The position numbers and the translations under genes are program-made. Under the pieces are notes generated by a model. It searched no databases, was not told where the DNA came from, and worked only from the letters and a program-made list of their open reading frames with translations. From Polynucleobacter sp. AP-Ainpum-60-G11 (GTDB lineage Bacteria; Pseudomonadota; Gammaproteobacteria; Burkholderiales; Burkholderiaceae), in contig NZ_CP061318.1 of the NCBI RefSeq assembly GCF_018688375.1, forward strand, positions 558,001 to 622,000: a stretch of 64,000 nt of DNA, written 5' to 3'. This document shows positions 30,429 through 57,014 of this stretch, one piece after another; position 1 is the stretch's first letter; the number at the start of each line of letters is the position of its first letter.

Positions 30429-31928
30429 TTGGAAGAAATTAACGCTCTATTCAGCGGCTTTGCCGTTGCAATGACACCCTTTAACTTGCTATTAATGCTT
30501 GTCGGTGTAACTCTTGGTGTGATTATTGGTGTATTGCCAGGTTTGGGTGGCGCAAACGGTATTGCGATTCTGTTGCCATTGACCTTCACAATGCCACCAA
30601 CATCCGCGATCATCATGCTGTCCTGTATTTACTGGGGTGCATTGTTTGGTGGCGCGATTACATCCGTGCTATTTAATATCCCAGGTGAACCATGGTCTGT
30701 TGCGACAACCTTTGATGGTTATCCAATGGCCCGTAATGGTAAAGCTGGCGAAGCATTGACAGCAGCGTTCACATCCTCATTTGTGGGTGCGTTCTTTGCG
30801 ATTGTGATGATTACCTTCTTGGCACCATTGGTGGCGAAGTTTGCACTCCAATTCGGTCCGCCGGAGTTTTTCTCGGTCTACCTCCTGACCTTCTGTAGTT
30901 TTGTGGGTATGAACAAAGGTTCGCCATTCAAGACAATTTCAGCAATGATGTTGGGCTTTGCATTGGCTACTGTTGGTATGGATACCGTGACAGGTCAGTT
31001 GCGTTTAACTTTCGGTAACCCAGAGTTGATGCGTGGTTTTGACTTCTTGATCGCGGTGATCGGCTTGTTTGGTATTGGCGAGATTCTTCTTTCAATGGAA
31101 GAGGGCTTGGCCTTCCAAGGTGCTGCAGCGAAGATTCGCGGTAAGGTTGTTTGGGAAACTTGGAAGCAGTTACCTAAGTACTGGGCAACTTCATTACGCA
31201 GCTGCTTAATTGGTTGCTGGATGGGTATCACTCCAGGTGGCGCTACTCCTGCATCTTTCATGGCTTACGGTGTTGCAAAACGCGTATCTAAAGAAGGTGA
31301 CAAGTTTGGTACTGGAAAGATGGAGGGTATTGTTGCTCCAGAAACAGCGGCTCACGCTGCTGGTACAGCCGCCTTATTGCCAATGTTGTCATTAGGTATC
31401 CCAGGATCACCAACAGCTGCCGTATTGCTTGGCGGTTTGTTGATCTGGGGTCTGCAACCTGGCCCATTGCTCTTCGTTGAGAAACCAGACTTTGTTTGGG
31501 GCTTGATTGCTAGTATGTACTTGGGTAACTTGGCAGGCTTGTTTGTTGTATTAACTTGCGTTCCATTGTTCGCCTCAATCTTGAGAATTCCGTTCTCCAT
31601 CATTGCTCCAGTCATCATTGTGATTTGTGCGGTTGGTGCATACACCGTCCACAACGCGATGTTTGACGTTTGGTTGATGTTGGGCTTCGGTGTATTGGGT
31701 TATGTCTTCAAGAAACTCGATTACCCAATGGCTCCAATGGTCTTGGCCTTGGTATTGGGTGACCGTGCAGAAGATTCTTTCCGCCAGTCCATGTTGTTCT
31801 CACAAGGTAGCTTAGATATTTTCTTCTCTAACTACTTGGTAGGTGCGATCACTACTCTGGCTTTGGTATTGCTGTTCTGGCCATTAATTGGCAAGTTCAT
31901 CGGCAAGAAAAAAGCTGCTGCAGCGTAA
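30429..31928 (+). CDS. tctA: tripartite tricarboxylate transporter large subunit TctA
   Basis: 499-residue polytopic membrane protein. TctA signatures are GVLPGLGGANGIAILLPLTF near residue 40, and the second glycine-rich region EGIVAPETAAHAAGTAALLPMLSLGIPGSPTAAVLLGGL. The start is TTG, about six bases behind AAGGAG. A Lys/Ala-rich tail closes the protein. A strong terminator follows, so tctCBA is one unit. Confidence 0.94.
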   Translation: MEEINALFSGFAVAMTPFNLLLMLVGVTLGVIIGVLPGLGGANGIAILLPLTFTMPPTSAIIMLSCIYWGALFGGAITSVLFNIPGEPWSVATTFDGYPMARNGKAGEALTAAFTSSFVGAFFAIVMITFLAPLVAKFALQFGPPEFFSVYLLTFCSFVGMNKGSPFKTISAMMLGFALATVGMDTVTGQLRLTFGNPELMRGFDFLIAVIGLFGIGEILLSMEEGLAFQGAAAKIRGKVVWETWKQLPKYWATSLRSCLIGCWMGITPGGATPASFMAYGVAKRVSKEGDKFGTGKMEGIVAPETAAHAAGTAALLPMLSLGIPGSPTAAVLLGGLLIWGLQPGPLLFVEKPDFVWGLIASMYLGNLAGLFVVLTCVPLFASILRIPFSIIAPVIIVICAVGAYTVHNAMFDVWLMLGFGVLGYVFKKLDYPMAPMVLALVLGDRAEDSFRQSMLFSQGSLDIFFSNYLVGAITTLALVLLFWPLIGKFIGKKKAAAA

Positions 31929-31950
31929 GCTAAAGCGCTAAATGAGTAAA

Positions 31951-31976
31951 GAAAAGGGGGCGCAAGCCCCTTTTTC
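31951..31976 (+). terminator. rho-independent terminator after tctA
   Basis: Arms AAAAGGGG and CCCCTTTT around a GCGCAA-type loop, with a T5 run, lie 23 bases after the tctA stop and 36 bases before the next gene. Confidence 0.85.
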
Positions 31977-32011
31977 TATTGGAACAAAAAATCCGATAAA
32001 ATCACCACATC

Positions 32012-32383
32012 ATGAATTTCCGCAAAAACCGCCTCATTCACTGGATTGCTGCTCTAGCAATCGCAATGAGTGCGCTTGCGCCAGCGGTTTCTCAAGCGGT
32101 ATCGCTAGCGAAGCATGGTCAAGGTTTTGCCATGGAGATTTGTGCTGCAGATGGTACGAAGTCGCAGGTTAATGTGCAAAGTGAAGATCAAGCAGATCTC
32201 GCAGAAGCGCAACCATGCCCGTATTGCATTGCTCACACAGCCATCACACCGGCATTCAATACCAATCTCACATTCCAGGCGCCGCAAACACTTGCTTTGC
32301 TGCCACAGCTTTTCTATCAATCACCCAAACCTCTCGCTGTTTGGGTAACACCTCCCTCAGCAGCACCTCCTACACAAGCCTAA
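32012..32383 (+). CDS. DUF2946 family exported protein
   Basis: 123-residue protein with an N-terminal hydrophobic signal or anchor segment (NRLIHWIAALAIAMSALAPAVSQA). The DUF2946 hallmark CPYC motif in QPCPYCIAHTAI is near residue 69, and a Pro/Ala-rich end (PPSAAPPTQA) follows. Another Cys is in the MEICAADG stretch. Function is unknown; members commonly sit beside TonB receptors and copper genes, as here. It is the first gene of a run of five in the same direction. Confidence 0.8.
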   Translation: MNFRKNRLIHWIAALAIAMSALAPAVSQAVSLAKHGQGFAMEICAADGTKSQVNVQSEDQADLAEAQPCPYCIAHTAITPAFNTNLTFQAPQTLALLPQLFYQSPKPLAVWVTPPSAAPPTQA

Positions 32384-32395
32384 ATCTTTTTAGGG

Positions 32396-32430
32396 CATAG
32401 CCTTGCTATGTAGTTGGCAACCAAGTTGCC
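32396..32430 (+). promoter_or_regulatory. two hairpins in the TonB receptor leader
   Basis: CATAG/CTATG (32396-32400 with 32406-32410) and GGCAAC/GTTGCC (32416-32421 with 32425-32430) lie in the 69-base gap before the receptor start. There is no T tract, so this is more a structured leader than a terminator. No known riboswitch consensus was recognised. Confidence 0.4.
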
Positions 32431-32452
32431 GTGATGTTGTGTGGAGAAGCAA

Positions 32453-34600
32453 ATGTTGTTTAAGCAAAAGAAGATTAGTGCATACATGGGTATGCTATTT
32501 GGATCAATGTTGATATCAAGTGGTGCTCAGGCTCAAATTGCACCCCCTCCTGACTATGATCAGAAATTAGCCGATATGGTAGTGACGGCCACAAAATCAG
32601 GTACTACCCTCAGGGATATGACTCAGAACACCACAATTTTGACGAAAGAGGAGTTGGAGATTGCGCCAGAGCAAACGATTGATCAGGTCCTCAAGAACCA
32701 ATCAAGCGTATTTTTAAATGATCAACCTTATTATGAAAAAGATCCAACTGGGCAAAGCATTAATGTTCGTGGCCTAGGAAATGCTAGAACATTAGTTCTG
32801 ATTGATGGCGTGCCTGCCAATGATGCGATGTATGGGACTGTGCAATGGAATCTTGTGCCAATGTCAGCAATCCAAGATGTTGAGTTTATTCGTGGTGGCG
32901 CTTCTAGTCTTTATGGAAATATGGGTATGGGCGGCGTGATTAATATTACAACTAAGCCAATCAGTGATAACAAGGGCGAGGTATCTGGGAGTATTGGATC
33001 CTATGCAACTGGTACGGCGGCAGTATCAAAGGAATTTGCAATAAGCGATTCCTTCAAGCTTAGGGCTTCAGCCGATTACTTTAGTACTGAGGGTTACCAA
33101 AATATCGCAACAATATCCCCTTCGTCGCAATCTGCCCTAAAGACTGGAATGGGAAATGAAAGTGCGGAGAGTGCCAACTATCGTTTGCAGGGCTCTCTAA
33201 AGGTTAGTCAAGATACCGATGGTTTTTTCAATTTCGGACTTCATTCAATGTCAAACCTGCCTACAGGTGGTTATAACTTCGCTAGAAAATCTACCAACGA
33301 GACAACAATTTCCGGTGGAACCACAACAAGGTTGAATTCTAGTGAACAGGTTCAAGTTAATGCATTTTATGAAAACACAACTTTGCAACAACAAAATGTG
33401 AGCTCAAGTAATCCATACATCAATGCCACTTTCCATAATCCTTACTATCAAGTTGGCGGCTCAGCTCAATATACTAATAATTTTCAAAACTCTCTGATTG
33501 ATCAGGTGATCCTAAGTGCTGATGCAAAGCAGCTCTCAGCATCGAATTATCAAAATAACTATGCCTCTCCTGGTGCTGCAAATTATCAAACTAGTAAATT
33601 GGGAGCTTTAAGCTCTCAGGTTGTGTCAGAGGGCACACAAAACTTCTTAGGAATTTTGGGCCAAGCTAAATCAAACCTAACGGCCATTCCCCTTCAAGCT
33701 ACGCTATCCGCTAGAGTTGATAATTGGACTAGTCAGATTCCGGTCAACTATACCCAAGCTGTTGGAGGGGCTCAAGTAAGTACGGCTGTTCCCAATCAAT
33801 CTAAAACAAAATTAAGTCCAAATTTAGGCCTCTTATATCGAGCATCTAGGGAGTTGGATTTTAGGGCTGCTGCTTATCAGGCTTTCCATGCACCAGGGCT
33901 GAATAATTCGATACGTAGTTATGGGTCCGGTTCAAGCTATGTAAGTAATAATCCATTTTTAACTCCAGAGAATATGACTGGGTATGAAATGGGATCTGAC
34001 TATCGCTGGAAATCCGGATTTATTCAAGTAACAGGTTTTAATGCGAATGTCACCAATGCTATCGCCACATACACCATGACTGCCGCCCAAATTGCGAGCA
34101 CTTGTGCGCCAGTATGTTCGGCTGGAGCGAAATCTTACAGCAACGATCAGTCGCTAAGAAGCACTGGATTGGAGCTTCAAGCCCACTATGACATTAGCTC
34201 TAAATGGGCAACAGATTTGGGGTATACGCTCACTAAGGCTGTATTAACTTCAACGTATGGAGCAATTAGTCAGTCATTGAACCCAACGGGGGTTCAGATA
34301 GCCGGAACACCCAGAAATATGGGTAGTGCAAGCCTTACATACTTCCCAATACCAAAGGCTAGTTTGACAGCCTCGGTTCGCTATATTGGAAATTCTTGGT
34401 ATGACACTGCGCACACCTCACCAATACCGGCTTATGCTGTAGTTGGTGCAAGGGCTAACTATGAGGTAACGCCAAATGCAACTGTTTATTTGAGTGCTGT
34501 GAACTTATTAAATCGTAATTACATTACATTTGGTTCTGGCTCACAATACACTGTTGGTCAGCCTCAAACAATCACCGTTGGTGGTCGGATAACATTTTGA
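32453..34600 (+). CDS. TonB-dependent outer membrane receptor, probably for copper
   Basis: 715-residue TonB-dependent receptor. After a signal peptide ending near SGAQA comes a TonB box-like ADMVVTATKS, the plug domain (about 45-165, with INVRGLGNARTLVLIDGVPAND and FIRGGASSLYGNMGMGGVINI), then a beta barrel ending in aromatic-F (GGRITF). A Cys pair, CAPVC, occurs in a predicted outer loop in the last quarter. The ATG six bases after GGAG is preferred over an in-frame GTG at 32441. Substrate is inferred from the following TlpA and PCuAC genes; a siderophore or cobalamin cannot be excluded. Confidence 0.85.
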   Translation: MLFKQKKISAYMGMLFGSMLISSGAQAQIAPPPDYDQKLADMVVTATKSGTTLRDMTQNTTILTKEELEIAPEQTIDQVLKNQSSVFLNDQPYYEKDPTGQSINVRGLGNARTLVLIDGVPANDAMYGTVQWNLVPMSAIQDVEFIRGGASSLYGNMGMGGVINITTKPISDNKGEVSGSIGSYATGTAAVSKEFAISDSFKLRASADYFSTEGYQNIATISPSSQSALKTGMGNESAESANYRLQGSLKVSQDTDGFFNFGLHSMSNLPTGGYNFARKSTNETTISGGTTTRLNSSEQVQVNAFYENTTLQQQNVSSSNPYINATFHNPYYQVGGSAQYTNNFQNSLIDQVILSADAKQLSASNYQNNYASPGAANYQTSKLGALSSQVVSEGTQNFLGILGQAKSNLTAIPLQATLSARVDNWTSQIPVNYTQAVGGAQVSTAVPNQSKTKLSPNLGLLYRASRELDFRAAAYQAFHAPGLNNSIRSYGSGSSYVSNNPFLTPENMTGYEMGSDYRWKSGFIQVTGFNANVTNAIATYTMTAAQIASTCAPVCSAGAKSYSNDQSLRSTGLELQAHYDISSKWATDLGYTLTKAVLTSTYGAISQSLNPTGVQIAGTPRNMGSASLTYFPIPKASLTASVRYIGNSWYDTAHTSPIPAYAVVGARANYEVTPNATVYLSAVNLLNRNYITFGSGSQYTVGQPQTITVGGRITF

Positions 34601-35865
34601 TAGTAATAAAAAACTCGCTTCATTTCAAGCCACATGACGTAGCCAAGGTTTTAATTCTGAGTCTCCTGGTATGGGGCGGGATTGATCTGGCCGTTGCTCA
34701 AATGGACCACTCATCCCATTCCGGAGCGAGTGCGCCTGCCAAGCCTTCTTCATCATGCAAGGGGTCGGGTTTAGATTGTGCGAATTCTGCAACGCCATTT
34801 TTGGGTAAGGATGGTAAGTTGCTTCTAACCTGGACTGGTGGTGGATTTGTTTCAGTTGCTAAATCTGATGATTTGGGAAAGACCTTTACATCTCCTATAG
34901 TTATTGCGGAGCATGGAAAATCTCTAGATGCTGGAAGCGATGCTCGCCCACAAATCGTTTCTGACTCAAAAGGAAATATATTTCTGGTTTATGCATTTTT
35001 CAAAGATGGTAATTGGAACGCACAGATTAATATGGCTCGATCATCCGACGGAGGTCTCAGTTTTACGACACCCATGCCGCTGATAAAAAATGGTTCTAGT
35101 GAGCGCTTTCCTTCAATGGTGATTGGTAAAGATGACTCCATATTCTTGGCTTGGATTGATAAGCGTTTAGTTGCTGATGCAAAGAAGTCGGGTAATCCGC
35201 ATCTTGGTGGATCCATCGCTTACTCATTTTCAAATGATGCTGGGAAAACATTTCAGCCTGAGAAAATAGCTAATGAACAGAGTTGTGAATGCTGTCGTAT
35301 AGGTTCTAGTATTGATCCAAAGGGTGGGGTAGCCATTGTTTATCGAGCTATTTTCCCTGGTGGTATACGTGATCACGCAACGCAGTTAATTAATGAATCC
35401 TCGTCAGGAAAAATTCGCAGAGTCTCTGAAGATGAATGGAAGACTGATGCTTGCCCTCACCATGGTCCTGCAATCGCAGTTTCTAGTACTGGAAAAATGC
35501 ATGTGGCTTGGTTTACTCAGGGAGCTGCTCGATCTGGAGTGTTCTATGCCAACTCTAGCAATCAGGGCGAAAGCTACTCGAATCCAATCAGAATTGGAGG
35601 CGAACATGAGAATGTTTCGCGCCCTTATCTCCTCGCTCGGGATAAGTCCATTTGGTTGGTTTGGAAGGGGTTTGATGGGGTAAAGACATCTGTATACCTT
35701 AAGAAATCACCGGATGATGGTGTTACATGGTCGCAGGCAATCTTGATTGCGCAGACAAGTGCTTATTCAGATCACCCTCTGTTAATTAGTAATGGGGGCG
35801 ATGTCTTTTTATCCTGGCTAACCCGAGCCGATGGCTATCAAGTCATTAAACTAAACGGCAAATGA
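34597..35865 (+). CDS. exported Asp-box beta-propeller (sialidase-like fold) with Cys-rich motif
   Basis: 422-residue secreted protein. The TTG start overlaps the receptor stop, and a signal peptide ends near residue 35 (LAVAQ), followed by MDHSSH with His38 and His41. Five Asp-box repeats (SDDLGKTF, SSDGGLSF, SNDAGKTF, SSNQGESY, SPDDGVTW) indicate a propeller of the BNR/sialidase type. It lacks a clear set of sialidase arginines by eye, and instead carries CECC (Cys230, Cys232, Cys233) and CPHH (Cys286, His288, His289), which look like metal ligands. It is overlapped by tlpA. It may bind or reduce copper in the periplasm (inference); true sialidase activity seems unlikely. Confidence 0.75.
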   Translation: MIVIKNSLHFKPHDVAKVLILSLLVWGGIDLAVAQMDHSSHSGASAPAKPSSSCKGSGLDCANSATPFLGKDGKLLLTWTGGGFVSVAKSDDLGKTFTSPIVIAEHGKSLDAGSDARPQIVSDSKGNIFLVYAFFKDGNWNAQINMARSSDGGLSFTTPMPLIKNGSSERFPSMVIGKDDSIFLAWIDKRLVADAKKSGNPHLGGSIAYSFSNDAGKTFQPEKIANEQSCECCRIGSSIDPKGGVAIVYRAIFPGGIRDHATQLINESSSGKIRRVSEDEWKTDACPHHGPAIAVSSTGKMHVAWFTQGAARSGVFYANSSNQGESYSNPIRIGGEHENVSRPYLLARDKSIWLVWKGFDGVKTSVYLKKSPDDGVTWSQAILIAQTSAYSDHPLLISNGGDVFLSWLTRADGYQVIKLNGK

Positions 35866-36344
35866 TGAAAAAAATACTTCTTACCCTTTCTCTATTTGTT
35901 CTGACAATGCACGCTGCCTTTGCGGATGCATCCACTATTCAGGCGTATCAGAAAGGGGATTGGGGCTCTTTATTAAAGAAAAATGCCGGCCAAGCAGTGG
36001 TCGTTCATTTTTGGGGCGTCACTTGTGCACCTTGCGCAAGAGAAATGCCTCAATGGGGCACGTTTCTCTCTGAGGATAGAAGTGCGAAGGTGATATTTAT
36101 TCAGGTTGATGAAGTATCTCTCGAAGCGACTAAAAAAATGTTAGCTAAGGCCGGCTTGGATAAGGCTTCCAGCTATTACTTAAATACTCCCTTCGATGAT
36201 TATTTTCGCCATGAAATTGATCCGCAGTGGCGTGGTGAAACTCCAATGACTTTGTTGATTGATAAAAATGGAAAGATAATCCGGAAAATAGGTCCGATAA
36301 ATTTTGTTGAGTTAAAGAAGTGGTTCGCTAAAGGTGTTTATTAA
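35862..36344 (+). CDS. TlpA-like periplasmic thioredoxin
   Basis: 160-residue exported thioredoxin-fold protein with signal peptide ending near HAAFA and the redox motif CAPC (Cys55, Cys58) in FWGVTCAPCAREMP. TlpA-family proteins keep copper-site cysteines reduced, for example in cytochrome oxidase subunit II assembly. The ATG overlaps the propeller gene's TGA, and PCuAC follows 15 bases downstream, which points to a copper role. The second Met codon is an equally possible start. Confidence 0.88.
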   Translation: MMKKILLTLSLFVLTMHAAFADASTIQAYQKGDWGSLLKKNAGQAVVVHFWGVTCAPCAREMPQWGTFLSEDRSAKVIFIQVDEVSLEATKKMLAKAGLDKASSYYLNTPFDDYFRHEIDPQWRGETPMTLLIDKNGKIIRKIGPINFVELKKWFAKGVY

Positions 36345-36359
36345 TTTAAGGAGAGTAAT

Positions 36360-36839
36360 TTGAAAAATATTGTGATTAGTTTAATTTCTTTGTCTGCGGC
36401 AGCATTTACTGCTGGAGCCTATGCGCAAAACGCTAAAGTTGGTAGCGTACAAATTGAAAATGCTTATACGCGTTCTACTGTCCCAGGCCAAATGGCTGCC
36501 GGTGGTTTTATGAAGATTGAAAATAAAGGCGCTGCTGATCAACTCATTTCTGCAAGTTCACCAGTTGCCGGTGAAGTTCAGTTGCATGAAATGGCGATGG
36601 AAGGCAATGTGATGAAAATGCGTCAAGTAAAAGATATTCCGGTGCCAGCAGGTGGCGCAGTGGAGTTAAAGCCGGGTGGTTTGCATTTAATGTTTATGAA
36701 CATCAAAGCACCTTTGGCTGCTGGTGAAACTGTTCCAGTTAAATTGAAGTTTGCTAAAGCAGGCGAAGTAGAAGTAAAGATGCCTGTCAATGCGATGGGC
36801 AATCCTGGTGCCGGTCACGGTGGAGCGATGAAGCACTAA
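36360..36839 (+). CDS. periplasmic copper chaperone PCuAC
   Basis: 159-residue exported protein with signal peptide ending near GAYA. It carries the canonical Cu(I) site H-x10-M-x21-H-x-M: His76, Met87, His109 and Met111. The tail GHGGAMKH offers more His and Met ligands. PCuAC proteins deliver copper to the CuA and CuB centres of haem-copper oxidases. TTG start after AAGGAGA. It is the last gene of the operon and is followed by a strong terminator. Confidence 0.93.
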   Translation: MKNIVISLISLSAAAFTAGAYAQNAKVGSVQIENAYTRSTVPGQMAAGGFMKIENKGAADQLISASSPVAGEVQLHEMAMEGNVMKMRQVKDIPVPAGGAVELKPGGLHLMFMNIKAPLAAGETVPVKLKFAKAGEVEVKMPVNAMGNPGAGHGGAMKH

Positions 36840-36872
36840 GCACTCGCTTTAGTAATTTGTAGCAAAGGTATT

Positions 36873-36908
36873 AAAAAAGCCCCTAGTTTTACTTAGGGGC
36901 TTTTGTTT
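36873..36908. terminator. bidirectional rho-independent terminator
   Basis: GCCCCTA (36879-36885) pairs with TAGGGGC (36894-36900); A-rich and T-rich flanks extend the stem on both sides. It ends the copper operon and the convergent ilvD. Confidence 0.85.
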
Positions 36909-36934
36909 TGCTGTATTGGATTTGTTGTCTGCAT

Positions 36935-38623
36935 TTAATCCAGATTTAGATCCGTTACCGCACCCTTACTTGCAGTGCTCGCAAGGTGTGCATACTTAGC
37001 AAGCAATCCACGGGTATAGCGTGGTTTAGGTTGTACCCAAGCAGCGCGACGCTTAGCAATCTCTTCATCGCTCACATTGAGTTGAATAAGTAGCTTATGG
37101 GCATCGATCGTGACAGAGTCACCTTCTTCGATGAGGGCGATAGTGCCGCCTACGAAAGCCTCAGGGGCAACGTGACCAACCACCATGCCCCAGGTACCAC
37201 CAGAGAAGCGTCCGTCAGTAATGAGGCCTACTGTCTCGCCTAAGCCTTGGCCAACGAGGGCAGAGGTAGGAGCCAGCATCTCACGCATACCAGGACCGCC
37301 TTTAGGGCCCTCATAACGAATCACCATGACGTCACCGTCTTTGATCTTTTGCGCCATGATGGCAGCCATTGCATCATCTTCAGAATCAAATACACGAGCA
37401 GGGCCGGTAATGGATGGGTTCTTGAGGCCGGTAATCTTAGCAACGCAACCCTCAGGGGAGATATTGCCTTTGAGGATGGCTAAGTGACCTTGCTTGTACA
37501 GCGGGTTATCTAAAGTGCGAATGACTTTTTGATCAGCGCGCGGTACAGATGGAACATCTTTCAATGTTTCTGCAATAGTCTTGCCTGTGATCGTCATGCA
37601 ATCACCATGCAAGAGTCCGCCATCTAACAAGATCTTCATGACTTGCGGAATACCGCCAGCTTGGTGAAGATCCGTTGCTAAATATTGTCCAGAAGGCTTC
37701 ATGTCGACGATGACTGGAACACGCTTACGAATACGTTCAAAGTCATCAATCGTCCAATCAATCTCAGCAGCACTGGTGATGGCTAGGTAATGCAGAACAG
37801 CATTAGTAGAGCCACCCACTGCCATGATTACGCTAACTGCGTTCTCAATGGATTTTTTAGTGATGATGTCGCGTGGACGTAAGTTTTTCTTAATAGCCTC
37901 AACGAGAACAATGGCTGACTCATGCGCGCTCGCAACTTTCTCAGCATCCTCATTGGCCATCGTAGAAGAGTAAGGCAGGCTCATACCTAAAGCTTCGAAT
38001 GAAGAGCTCATGGTGTTAGCTGTATACATACCGCCGCAAGAGCCGCTACCTGGGCAAGCATGTTGCTCTACGCCCTTGAGATCTGATTCACTCATGCGGC
38101 CGGAGGTGAATTCACCAACGGCTTCAAATGCAGAAACAATGTTCAGATCCTTGCCTTTGAAATGGCCCGGCTTAATCGTGCCACCATAAACATAGATACT
38201 GGGTACGTTGGTGCGCGCCATCGCCATCATGCCGCCTGGCATGTTCTTATCGCAACCGCCGATAACCACAACGCCGTCTTGCCATAAACCATTGACACAA
38301 GTTTCAATACTGTCAGCAATCACTTCACGAGAGATCAGGGAGTACTTCATACCCTCGGTGCCCATGCCGATACCATCGGACACGGTAGGGGTACCAAACA
38401 TTTGCGCTTTTGCACCAGCCTCTTCGAGAGCGGTAACCGCGGCATCTGCGAGTTTTTGCAAACCGCTATTGCAGGGGGTGATAGTGGAGTGGCCGTTTGC
38501 TACGCCAACCATTGGCTTAACAAAATCCTTCTCTTCGTAGCCCATCGCGTAATACATTGAGCGATTAGGTGCGCGAGCAACCCCTTCGGTGACATTGCGC
38601 GAGCGTTCATTGAGGCGTTTCAT
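36935..38623 (-). CDS. ilvD: dihydroxy-acid dehydratase
   Basis: 562-residue Fe-S enzyme of isoleucine, valine and pantothenate synthesis. Cluster cysteines lie in [16 protein letters not shown] and the [15 protein letters not shown] motif; the C-terminal [21 protein letters not shown] is also typical. The ATG at 38623 (MKRLNERSR) has CTGGAG upstream and matches family length; the 19-residue extension to 38680 is unlikely. It is divergent from the response regulator gene. Confidence 0.96.
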
Positions 38624-56853: not shown

Positions 56854-57014
56854 GGTCTATTACCCTTCCTATTGGTAGTTAATGTGCTTAGCGCACAAAT
56901 GGATATTACTTCAGTTCTATCCACTTTTGCTGATACCTATATGGGGATTTACCTAGCAATATCAAGGATCAATCCCTAATTATTCTTTGGGCTTTGGAGG
57001 AAGGAGCGTGGTGC

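Follow-up and report, generated by a model that had tools for sequence, protein, structure and literature searches.

Copper acquisition by Gram-negative bacteria, as against copper resistance, is poorly known, and the closest described systems include two operons in which a DUF2946-type leader gene precedes a gene for a TonB-dependent receptor. The cruR-crtA(bfrG)-crpH operon of Bordetella pertussis has its leader first and its receptor second and supplies copper to heme-copper oxidases (PMC9426467, PMC12914433, PMC13038864), while pcuABCDE of Bradyrhizobium japonicum opens with a cruR homolog, includes a TonB receptor and the copper chaperone PCuAC, and is induced by copper starvation (PMC8424229, PMC12617631, PMC9426467). 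Here we describe a five-gene operon at positions 32012–36839 of a 64,000-nucleotide stretch of the Polynucleobacter sp. AP-Ainpum-60-G11 genome (the window), which shares the leader-receptor order and, judging from comparative evidence, is very likely to bring in copper for respiration. Copper import operons led by CruR are a known kind; the unusual parts of this one are a conserved propeller protein with its own thioredoxin, a leader RNA predicted to mask a Shine-Dalgarno (SD) sequence and an arrest motif lacking its arginine. An earlier interpretation made from the DNA alone (the sequence-only reading) had considered a complete import-to-chaperone set not to be a textbook system, but receptor-to-chaperone copper operons are in print as pcuABCDE, cruR-crtA-crpH and TccA.

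As that reading had described, the five open reading frames (ORFs) run in one direction with overlaps or short gaps (69, -4, -4 and 15 nt), the 69 nt being counted from a receptor start at ATG 32453, which lies 6 nt after GGAG and is taken in place of the listed GTG at 32441:

32012–32383, plus strand: DUF2946 / CruR-type copper leader peptide, 123 aa (Pfam PF11162, 48.4 bits, cut-off 23.7)
32453–34600, plus strand: TonB-dependent receptor, 715 aa (Pfam plug 84.1 bits, barrel 129.5 bits)
34597–35865, plus strand: propeller protein of the BNR/sialidase-like superfamily (Pfam BNR 39.5 bits, cut-off 31.4; TTG start)
35862–36344, plus strand: TlpA-like periplasmic thioredoxin, 160 aa (Thioredoxin_8 29.2 bits, cut-off 27)
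36360–36839, plus strand: PCuAC periplasmic copper chaperone (Pfam PF04314, 136.8 bits, cut-off 29.4; TTG start)

Relative to cruR-crtA-crpH, the window receptor is not CrtA-like, and a propeller and TlpA stand where B. pertussis has the PepSY protein CrpH; the intergenic region is 69 nt with a predicted SD-masking RNA rather than 162 bp with Rho termination, and the arrest motif is without its arginine. The pcuABCDE operon, as described in the sources for it, has neither propeller nor TlpA (PMC8424229, PMC12617631, PMC9426467).

Comparison of loci shows the genes to form an operon, with the order CruR-receptor-propeller-TlpA conserved over alpha- and betaproteobacteria, far beyond chance. A propeller match was present in 91 of 299 genomes of the family and in 34 of 398 genomes of the phylum, 15 of the latter being strong (>300 bits); in these 15, which include the window and were sampled without regard to motif, a receptor lay upstream in 14, DUF2946 close upstream in 11, TlpA downstream in all 15 and PCuAC downstream in 10. 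A scan of named genomes, using patterns from the propeller signature and hence biased towards it, gave among the best 80 of 575 confirmed matches Nitrobacter, Bradyrhizobium, Reyranella, Hyphomicrobium and Magnetospirillum. Across 95 distinct propeller loci, most of them from this motif-based scan, receptor and DUF2946 each occurred in 79 of the 81 with at least 3.5 kb upstream, TlpA in 86 of the 90 with at least 0.7 kb downstream and PCuAC in 47 of the 80 with at least 2.5 kb downstream, some misses being ORF-start artefacts. The neighbourhood co-occurrence of DUF2946, propeller and PCuAC, proposed earlier as a check, is thus conserved in relatives, though PCuAC is less tightly tied to the set than TlpA. 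In a Paraburkholderia locus (L045) TonB-ExbB-ExbD genes lie between receptor and propeller, and in L047 ExbB-ExbD. Three loci, L096 of Bradyrhizobium lablabi and L091 and L115 of Nitrobacter, carry a further CruR-receptor set directly downstream of the propeller set, and PCuAC is also in view in L096 and L091; the B. lablabi arrangement, a propeller set and then CruR-receptor-PCuAC-CopD, resembles the pcu operon (pcuABCDE, reportedly from Serventi 2012) without its YcnI.

The best evidence that the cassette imports copper comes from its exchange, seen by comparing loci, with known or likely copper importers. The propeller is present in 52 of 121 genomes of the genus and DUF2946 in 106, and most propeller-bearing loci have ilvD on one side and Tct genes or a DctM-like gene on the other. 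In 47 stretches around genus DUF2946 genes (L181–L227; mainly from propeller-less genomes and not a random sample), PCuAC was in view after CruR in 43, whatever the cassette. Between the two lay nothing in 15 loci, another TonB receptor in 10 (two of which also carry the NF033672 set), a protein termed U347 in nine, the NF033672 cassette in five, the copper receptor OprC (TIGR01778) in five and other content in three, one of these being the propeller set again. The NF033672 cassette consists of a copper-uptake-associated protein and a small receptor, and all eight proteins tested (L182 plus seven) matched its profile at 117–128 bits (cut-off 50); the four OprC proteins tested scored 605–615 bits (cut-off 472), the fifth (L196) being in two reading-frame pieces. 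U347 (344–370 aa) is without a Pfam family, barrel-like by inspection and possibly an uncharacterised copper porin standing in for the receptor cassette. TctA and ilvD were both in view in 28 of the 47 loci, one of them in 10 and neither in nine, with both flanks in four of the five NF033672 loci. Because known or likely copper importers occupy its place between CruR and PCuAC, the receptor-propeller-TlpA cassette would itself import copper, and the loci show unrelated outer-membrane import cassettes replacing one another between a single copper sensor and a single chaperone.

Other genes accompany some of these loci. A Crp/Fnr-type regulator gene lies between CruR and OprC in L183 (7214–7789, by profile) and in L192 and L223 (by similarity to L183). 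A second CruR, of the RAPP type and with a 185–217 aa protein after it (U204, without a Pfam match in L182), is inserted before PCuAC in L182 (3393–4427), L226, L207, L208, L199, L191 and L209. U347 (L184:4623–5663, L181:5186–6223) has CSSCGCSL near its N-terminus in L184, and a thioredoxin-like gene lies on the opposite strand.

Control of the operon is predicted to lie in the leader gene and the RNA that follows it:

32216–32227, plus strand: CPYC codons (residues 69–72), the copper-sensing motif in CruR (by alignment; role from PMC9426467)
32360–32371, plus strand: A-A-P-P codons (residues 117–120), at the site of the CruR arrest motif RAPP (by alignment)
32363–32452, plus strand: structured RNA R1, reaching from the arrest codons up to the start of the receptor gene, with three hairpins inside a closing helix (predicted fold)
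32443–32446, plus strand: SD sequence GGAG of the receptor gene, within UUGUGUGGAG, predicted to be masked (from sequence and fold)

CruR, a leader peptide of B. pertussis, belongs to the DUF2946 family and allows copper to switch off the receptor gene that follows it, with CXXC as its copper-sensing and RAPP as its arrest motif (PMC9426467). DUF2946, which the sequence-only reading had left as an unassigned part of the import route, is therefore a control element with an assigned role. Comparison shows the window protein to be a leader of this type: its domain match exceeds the cut-off, it is the first gene of the operon, and its CXXC lies at the expected spacing from the C-terminal xAPP (44 residues in the window and its clade, 45 in B. 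pertussis), CXXC and the C-terminal APP being invariant across 14 aligned rows that include the window. The arrest motif RAPP (or RGPP) is AAPP in the window, so the leader is filed as CruR-like and not as a proven arrest peptide. Of the CruR tails read at propeller loci, 88 with a few duplicates among them, 55 end in RAPP/RGPP, 27 are Arg-less (24 AAPP and one each of VAPP, GAPP and QAPP) and six were not parsed, four of these being REPP. All 27 Arg-less tails belong to Polynucleobacter or to Burkholderiaceae/betaproteobacterial metagenome-assembled genomes grouping with it; five tails of the same group or genus (L042, L044, L076, L077, L081) keep the arginine, and in the first CruR of the further 47 genus loci it is present in nine and absent in 38. 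No solved structure matched DUF2946 at E<=0.1 (best E 0.56).

In the predicted fold of R1 (-38.1 kcal/mol, z -3.2; equalled by one of 200 shuffles), CUCC-U-ACACAA (32367–32377), part of the P-P-T-Q codons, pairs with UUGUGUGGAG (32437–32446) to form the closing helix, and hairpin 1 holds the cruR stop codon. No Rfam family matched the leader RNA at E<=1 within 31900–37000. A covariance model built from 45 sequences matched 68 of the 121 genus genomes, by-eye comparison placing the matches at the DUF2946 3' end except for two weak ones (G351:C9, G344:C49), with the match in G094 falling at a broken locus; in a family sample of 150 genomes it matched 14, every one Polynucleobacter. Comparison of 52 copies, in an alignment that was fitted to the model, shows the RNA structure through 11 pairs changed on both sides (4.2 in shuffles; 0 of 500 as high), the covarying pairs being five of five in hairpin 3, four of seven in hairpin 2 and none of five in hairpin 1.

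Pairing between the codon arm and the SD arm was compared with permuted partners in three sets of leaders, with arms defined from the motif and the SD and with permutations that leave relatedness in place; in all three, arms paired better with their own partners. The first genus set comprised 47 of 49 leaders picked by hairpin pattern from 145 (omitting L087, from outside the genus, and L200, which has no SD), and its 41 distinct arm pairs gave z -3.2 (6/5000), and z -6.5 against synonymous recodings (0/1000, uniform codon choice). Outside the genus, 34 of 49 leaders (32 distinct; the rest without a parsed motif or SD) gave z -5.8 (0/5000). A further 22 genus leaders outside the main set of the model, after five without a recognised start were dropped, gave z -4.5 (0/5000), and include L183, where ACACUCGC pairs with GCGAGUG before OprC; L220 is common to this and the first genus set. 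The predicted fold and the pairing tests agree in placing a downstream SD in a helix that ribosome pausing would open. SecM-SecA and CutF-CutO of Rhodobacter capsulatus are known cases of such masking, relieved when the ribosome pauses on the leader (PMC10987492, PMC9973294), but CutF activates a detoxification oxidase with copper (PMC9973294) and the window switch is predicted to have the opposite sign, and its pairing arm, unlike those of CutF and SecM as described, is made of the arrest codons themselves. No mention of SD masking for CruR was found in open-licence PMC text (figures aside), and the term 'Shine-Dalgarno' is absent from the main text of PMC9426467. A weak second match to the R1 model lies on the minus strand at 56919–57007 of the window (16 bits, E 0.02), with an unconvincing sequence.

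Three short motifs in the propeller and thioredoxin stand out by conservation, counted over rows that leave out eight propeller loci (seven duplicates or near-duplicates and the broken L043):

35284–35298, plus strand: CECCR codons of the propeller (residues 230–234), all three Cys in 93 of 93 rows
35452–35469, plus strand: CPHHGP codons of the propeller (residues 286–291), C286 and P287 in 93 of 93 rows, H288 in 92 of 93
36024–36035, plus strand: CAPC codons of the TlpA-like thioredoxin, both Cys in 87 of 87 rows

By inspection, the window's propeller has a signal peptide and is Met/His-rich at the N-terminus. Comparison of the propeller proteins shows the signature CECCR...RDH...CPHHGP to be near-invariant; close homologs bearing an organism name were Polynucleobacter among the matches listed (120 of 3928). 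The structure model (pLDDT 84.7) has PLL lectins and CylK among its best matches in the PDB and shares its fold with these and with BNR/sialidase-like propellers, differing from them in its low identity (~9–12%), its signature and its copper operon context. Neither a propeller in copper operons nor any function for this propeller was found in open-licence PMC titles and abstracts (figures aside), and the sequence-only reading's description of it as an unassigned part holds. The TlpA-like protein has a signal peptide by inspection, the WxxxCxxC motif with C55 and C58 in 87 of 87 rows and P128, of the cis-Pro loop, in 86 of 87. The translation of PCuAC carries H-x10-M-x21-H-x-M, which we take to be the canonical form of its copper motif. 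A distant propeller (L180:3224–4777; TCDCC...CPVNGP, 105 bits) lies beside weak DUF2946-like matches and a receptor, and the family may be wider. At the broken locus L043 the receptor is fragmented and CECC altered while TlpA, PCuAC and ilvD look intact, a joint decay of receptor and propeller.

The receptor fell under every NCBIfam cut-off, including those for siderophore, heme and B12 receptors (24 families at E<=1), and a grouping with siderophore or cobalamin receptors, which the sequence-only reading had named as the result that would speak against it, did not occur. OprC was rejected as its identity (TIGR01778 is not among the 24 families), and so was CrtA, since the receptor scores 38.6 bits to CrtA-Bp (PDB 9RVQ) and 62.6 bits to the colicin I receptor, a judgement made on match scores. 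CrtA receptors have an invariant ligand-site His (H358 in CrtA-Bp); the best match to 9RVQ spans residues 602–709 only, and at most 40 of the 87 module receptors share any one His. In trees of 30 genus-group loci, the window propeller groups with L034, L054 and L055 (bootstrap/SH-aLRT 100/99) and the window receptor with L056, L072, L040 and L037 (SH-aLRT 100, quick search); because the two trees conflict, the receptor gene was probably swapped between genus lineages while its neighbours stayed. Low BLAST identity had hinted at unrelated swapped receptors in distant loci as well, a reading rejected since profile scores suggest one fast-evolving group, and exchange is therefore argued inside the genus only.

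The best overall explanation, which we consider reasonably probable, is a copper-starvation operon with a leader switch, in which propeller and TlpA release the imported copper. The CruR leader would sense copper through CPYC, and at low copper a ribosome would pause on the C-terminal xAPP and cover the codons that otherwise pair with the receptor SD, so that receptor, propeller and TlpA would be translated; with ample copper CruR would be completed, the helix would close and the operon would fall silent. The receptor would import a copper chelate, which the periplasmic propeller may take on a face bearing the CECCR, RDH and CPHHGP residues and many conserved Arg/Lys; its thiols would strip or reduce the copper, TlpA would re-reduce its cysteines, and the copper would pass to PCuAC and on to a CuA-type oxidase site. 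The regulation and import in this account rest on comparison, whereas we infer that ribosomes pause at AAPP, that the propeller binds and reduces copper and that the metal is handed to PCuAC. The link between copper import and oxidase assembly drawn in the sequence-only reading is supported by the CruR leader, the canonical PCuAC, the conserved linkage and the replacement of the cassette by OprC or NF033672. A bolder proposal, offered tentatively and on balance doubtful, is that CECCR/CPHHGP propellers are a novel class of copper protein in the periplasm, able to strip and reduce copper from imported chelates and recharged by a dedicated thioredoxin, under an Arg-less arrest peptide whose PP codons form the anti-SD arm in an RNA junction of four helices. 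The locus points to a periplasmic component of copper acquisition that is conserved but unassigned.

Several observations weigh against the copper-starvation account. B. pertussis CruR acts through Rho-dependent termination and not through SD masking (PMC9426467), and within the genus column-wise covariation of the SD helix was not above column shuffles (83.1% paired), because the register of the closing helix moves. An initial, looser pairing test of 72 genus leaders, in which failed duplexes were mixed, was not significant (median rank 0.31), and Paraburkholderia-type loci (L048, L092, L095, L097, L098) pair poorly with the SD. Among the OprC loci, ilvD is in view in one of five (L192) and neither TctA nor ilvD in four; from their flanks, these four appear to be CruR-PCuAC loci elsewhere or rearranged, so that same-site identity holds for the NF033672 cassette and one OprC locus only, which still show the exchange. 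In the propeller, H260 is replaced by Gln in three of 21, the broken locus L043 lacks the three CECC Cys, and we infer the grouping of Cys and His on one face of the model from strand order. The arrest arginine is replaced in the window CruR, as in the R139A (AAPP) form of B. pertussis CruR that served as the arrest-defective toeprint control in vitro, where mutation of RAPP abolished the arrest product (PMC12992588).

This last point leaves two routes for the Arg-less leaders, either pausing in another way or loss of pausing. Under the latter, R1 would be a decaying relic or serve simple translational coupling and the operon would be copper-independent in most Polynucleobacter, which we regard as unlikely but a serious contender: AAPP variants are arrest-defective in the contexts shown (PMC12992588) and 38 of 47 first CruRs have no arginine, but conservation persists in CXXC, xAPP, their spacing and the WVTPPSAAPP tail, and 68 of 121 genus genomes retain the RNA, ahead of different cassettes. 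A natural CruR without the arginine held necessary for arrest, beside an RNA that needs pausing to open, makes a testable switch. The shared fold would also fit a role in chalkophore processing, with the propeller acting as an enzyme or lectin on an organic copper ligand, sugar-bearing or otherwise, which it would recognise or cleave once imported, so releasing the copper; its Cys would then form structural disulfides made or repaired by TlpA. This is rather improbable, as CECC holds three close, nearly invariant Cys, an unusual arrangement for plain disulfides, no solved sialidase resembles the propeller significantly in sequence (best E 0.098) and the set is kept beside copper genes. Import of a different metal or metal-organic compound by the cassette, which would then share CruR and PCuAC by position only, would agree with a receptor outside the copper-receptor families tested (CrtA, OprC) whose best-scoring NCBIfam profiles, below cut-off, are heme- and siderophore-type, but it is very improbable given CruR at the front and PCuAC following in 43 of 47 loci regardless of the cassette, and given OprC and NF033672, both far above their cut-offs, among the alternatives.

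The operon lies between a tripartite tricarboxylate transporter set upstream (TctA end at 31928) and ilvD downstream on the opposite strand, with hairpins on either side:

31952–31974, plus strand: intrinsic-terminator-like hairpin after TctA and before cruR, AAAAGGGG-GCGCAAG-CCCCTTTT with a T run, read from sequence
36875–36904, plus strand: intrinsic terminator 3' of PCuAC, 12 bp stem, found by the terminator scan

Of the strong terminators placed on both sides by the sequence-only reading, the downstream one stands; the upstream hairpin was scored by the scan on the minus strand only, its plus-strand reading being by eye. The genome, a single 1.9 Mb contig of Polynucleobacter type, holds three TonB-receptor barrel matches, two COX1-type matches, one Sco and one PCuAC, the last being the operon's own copy.

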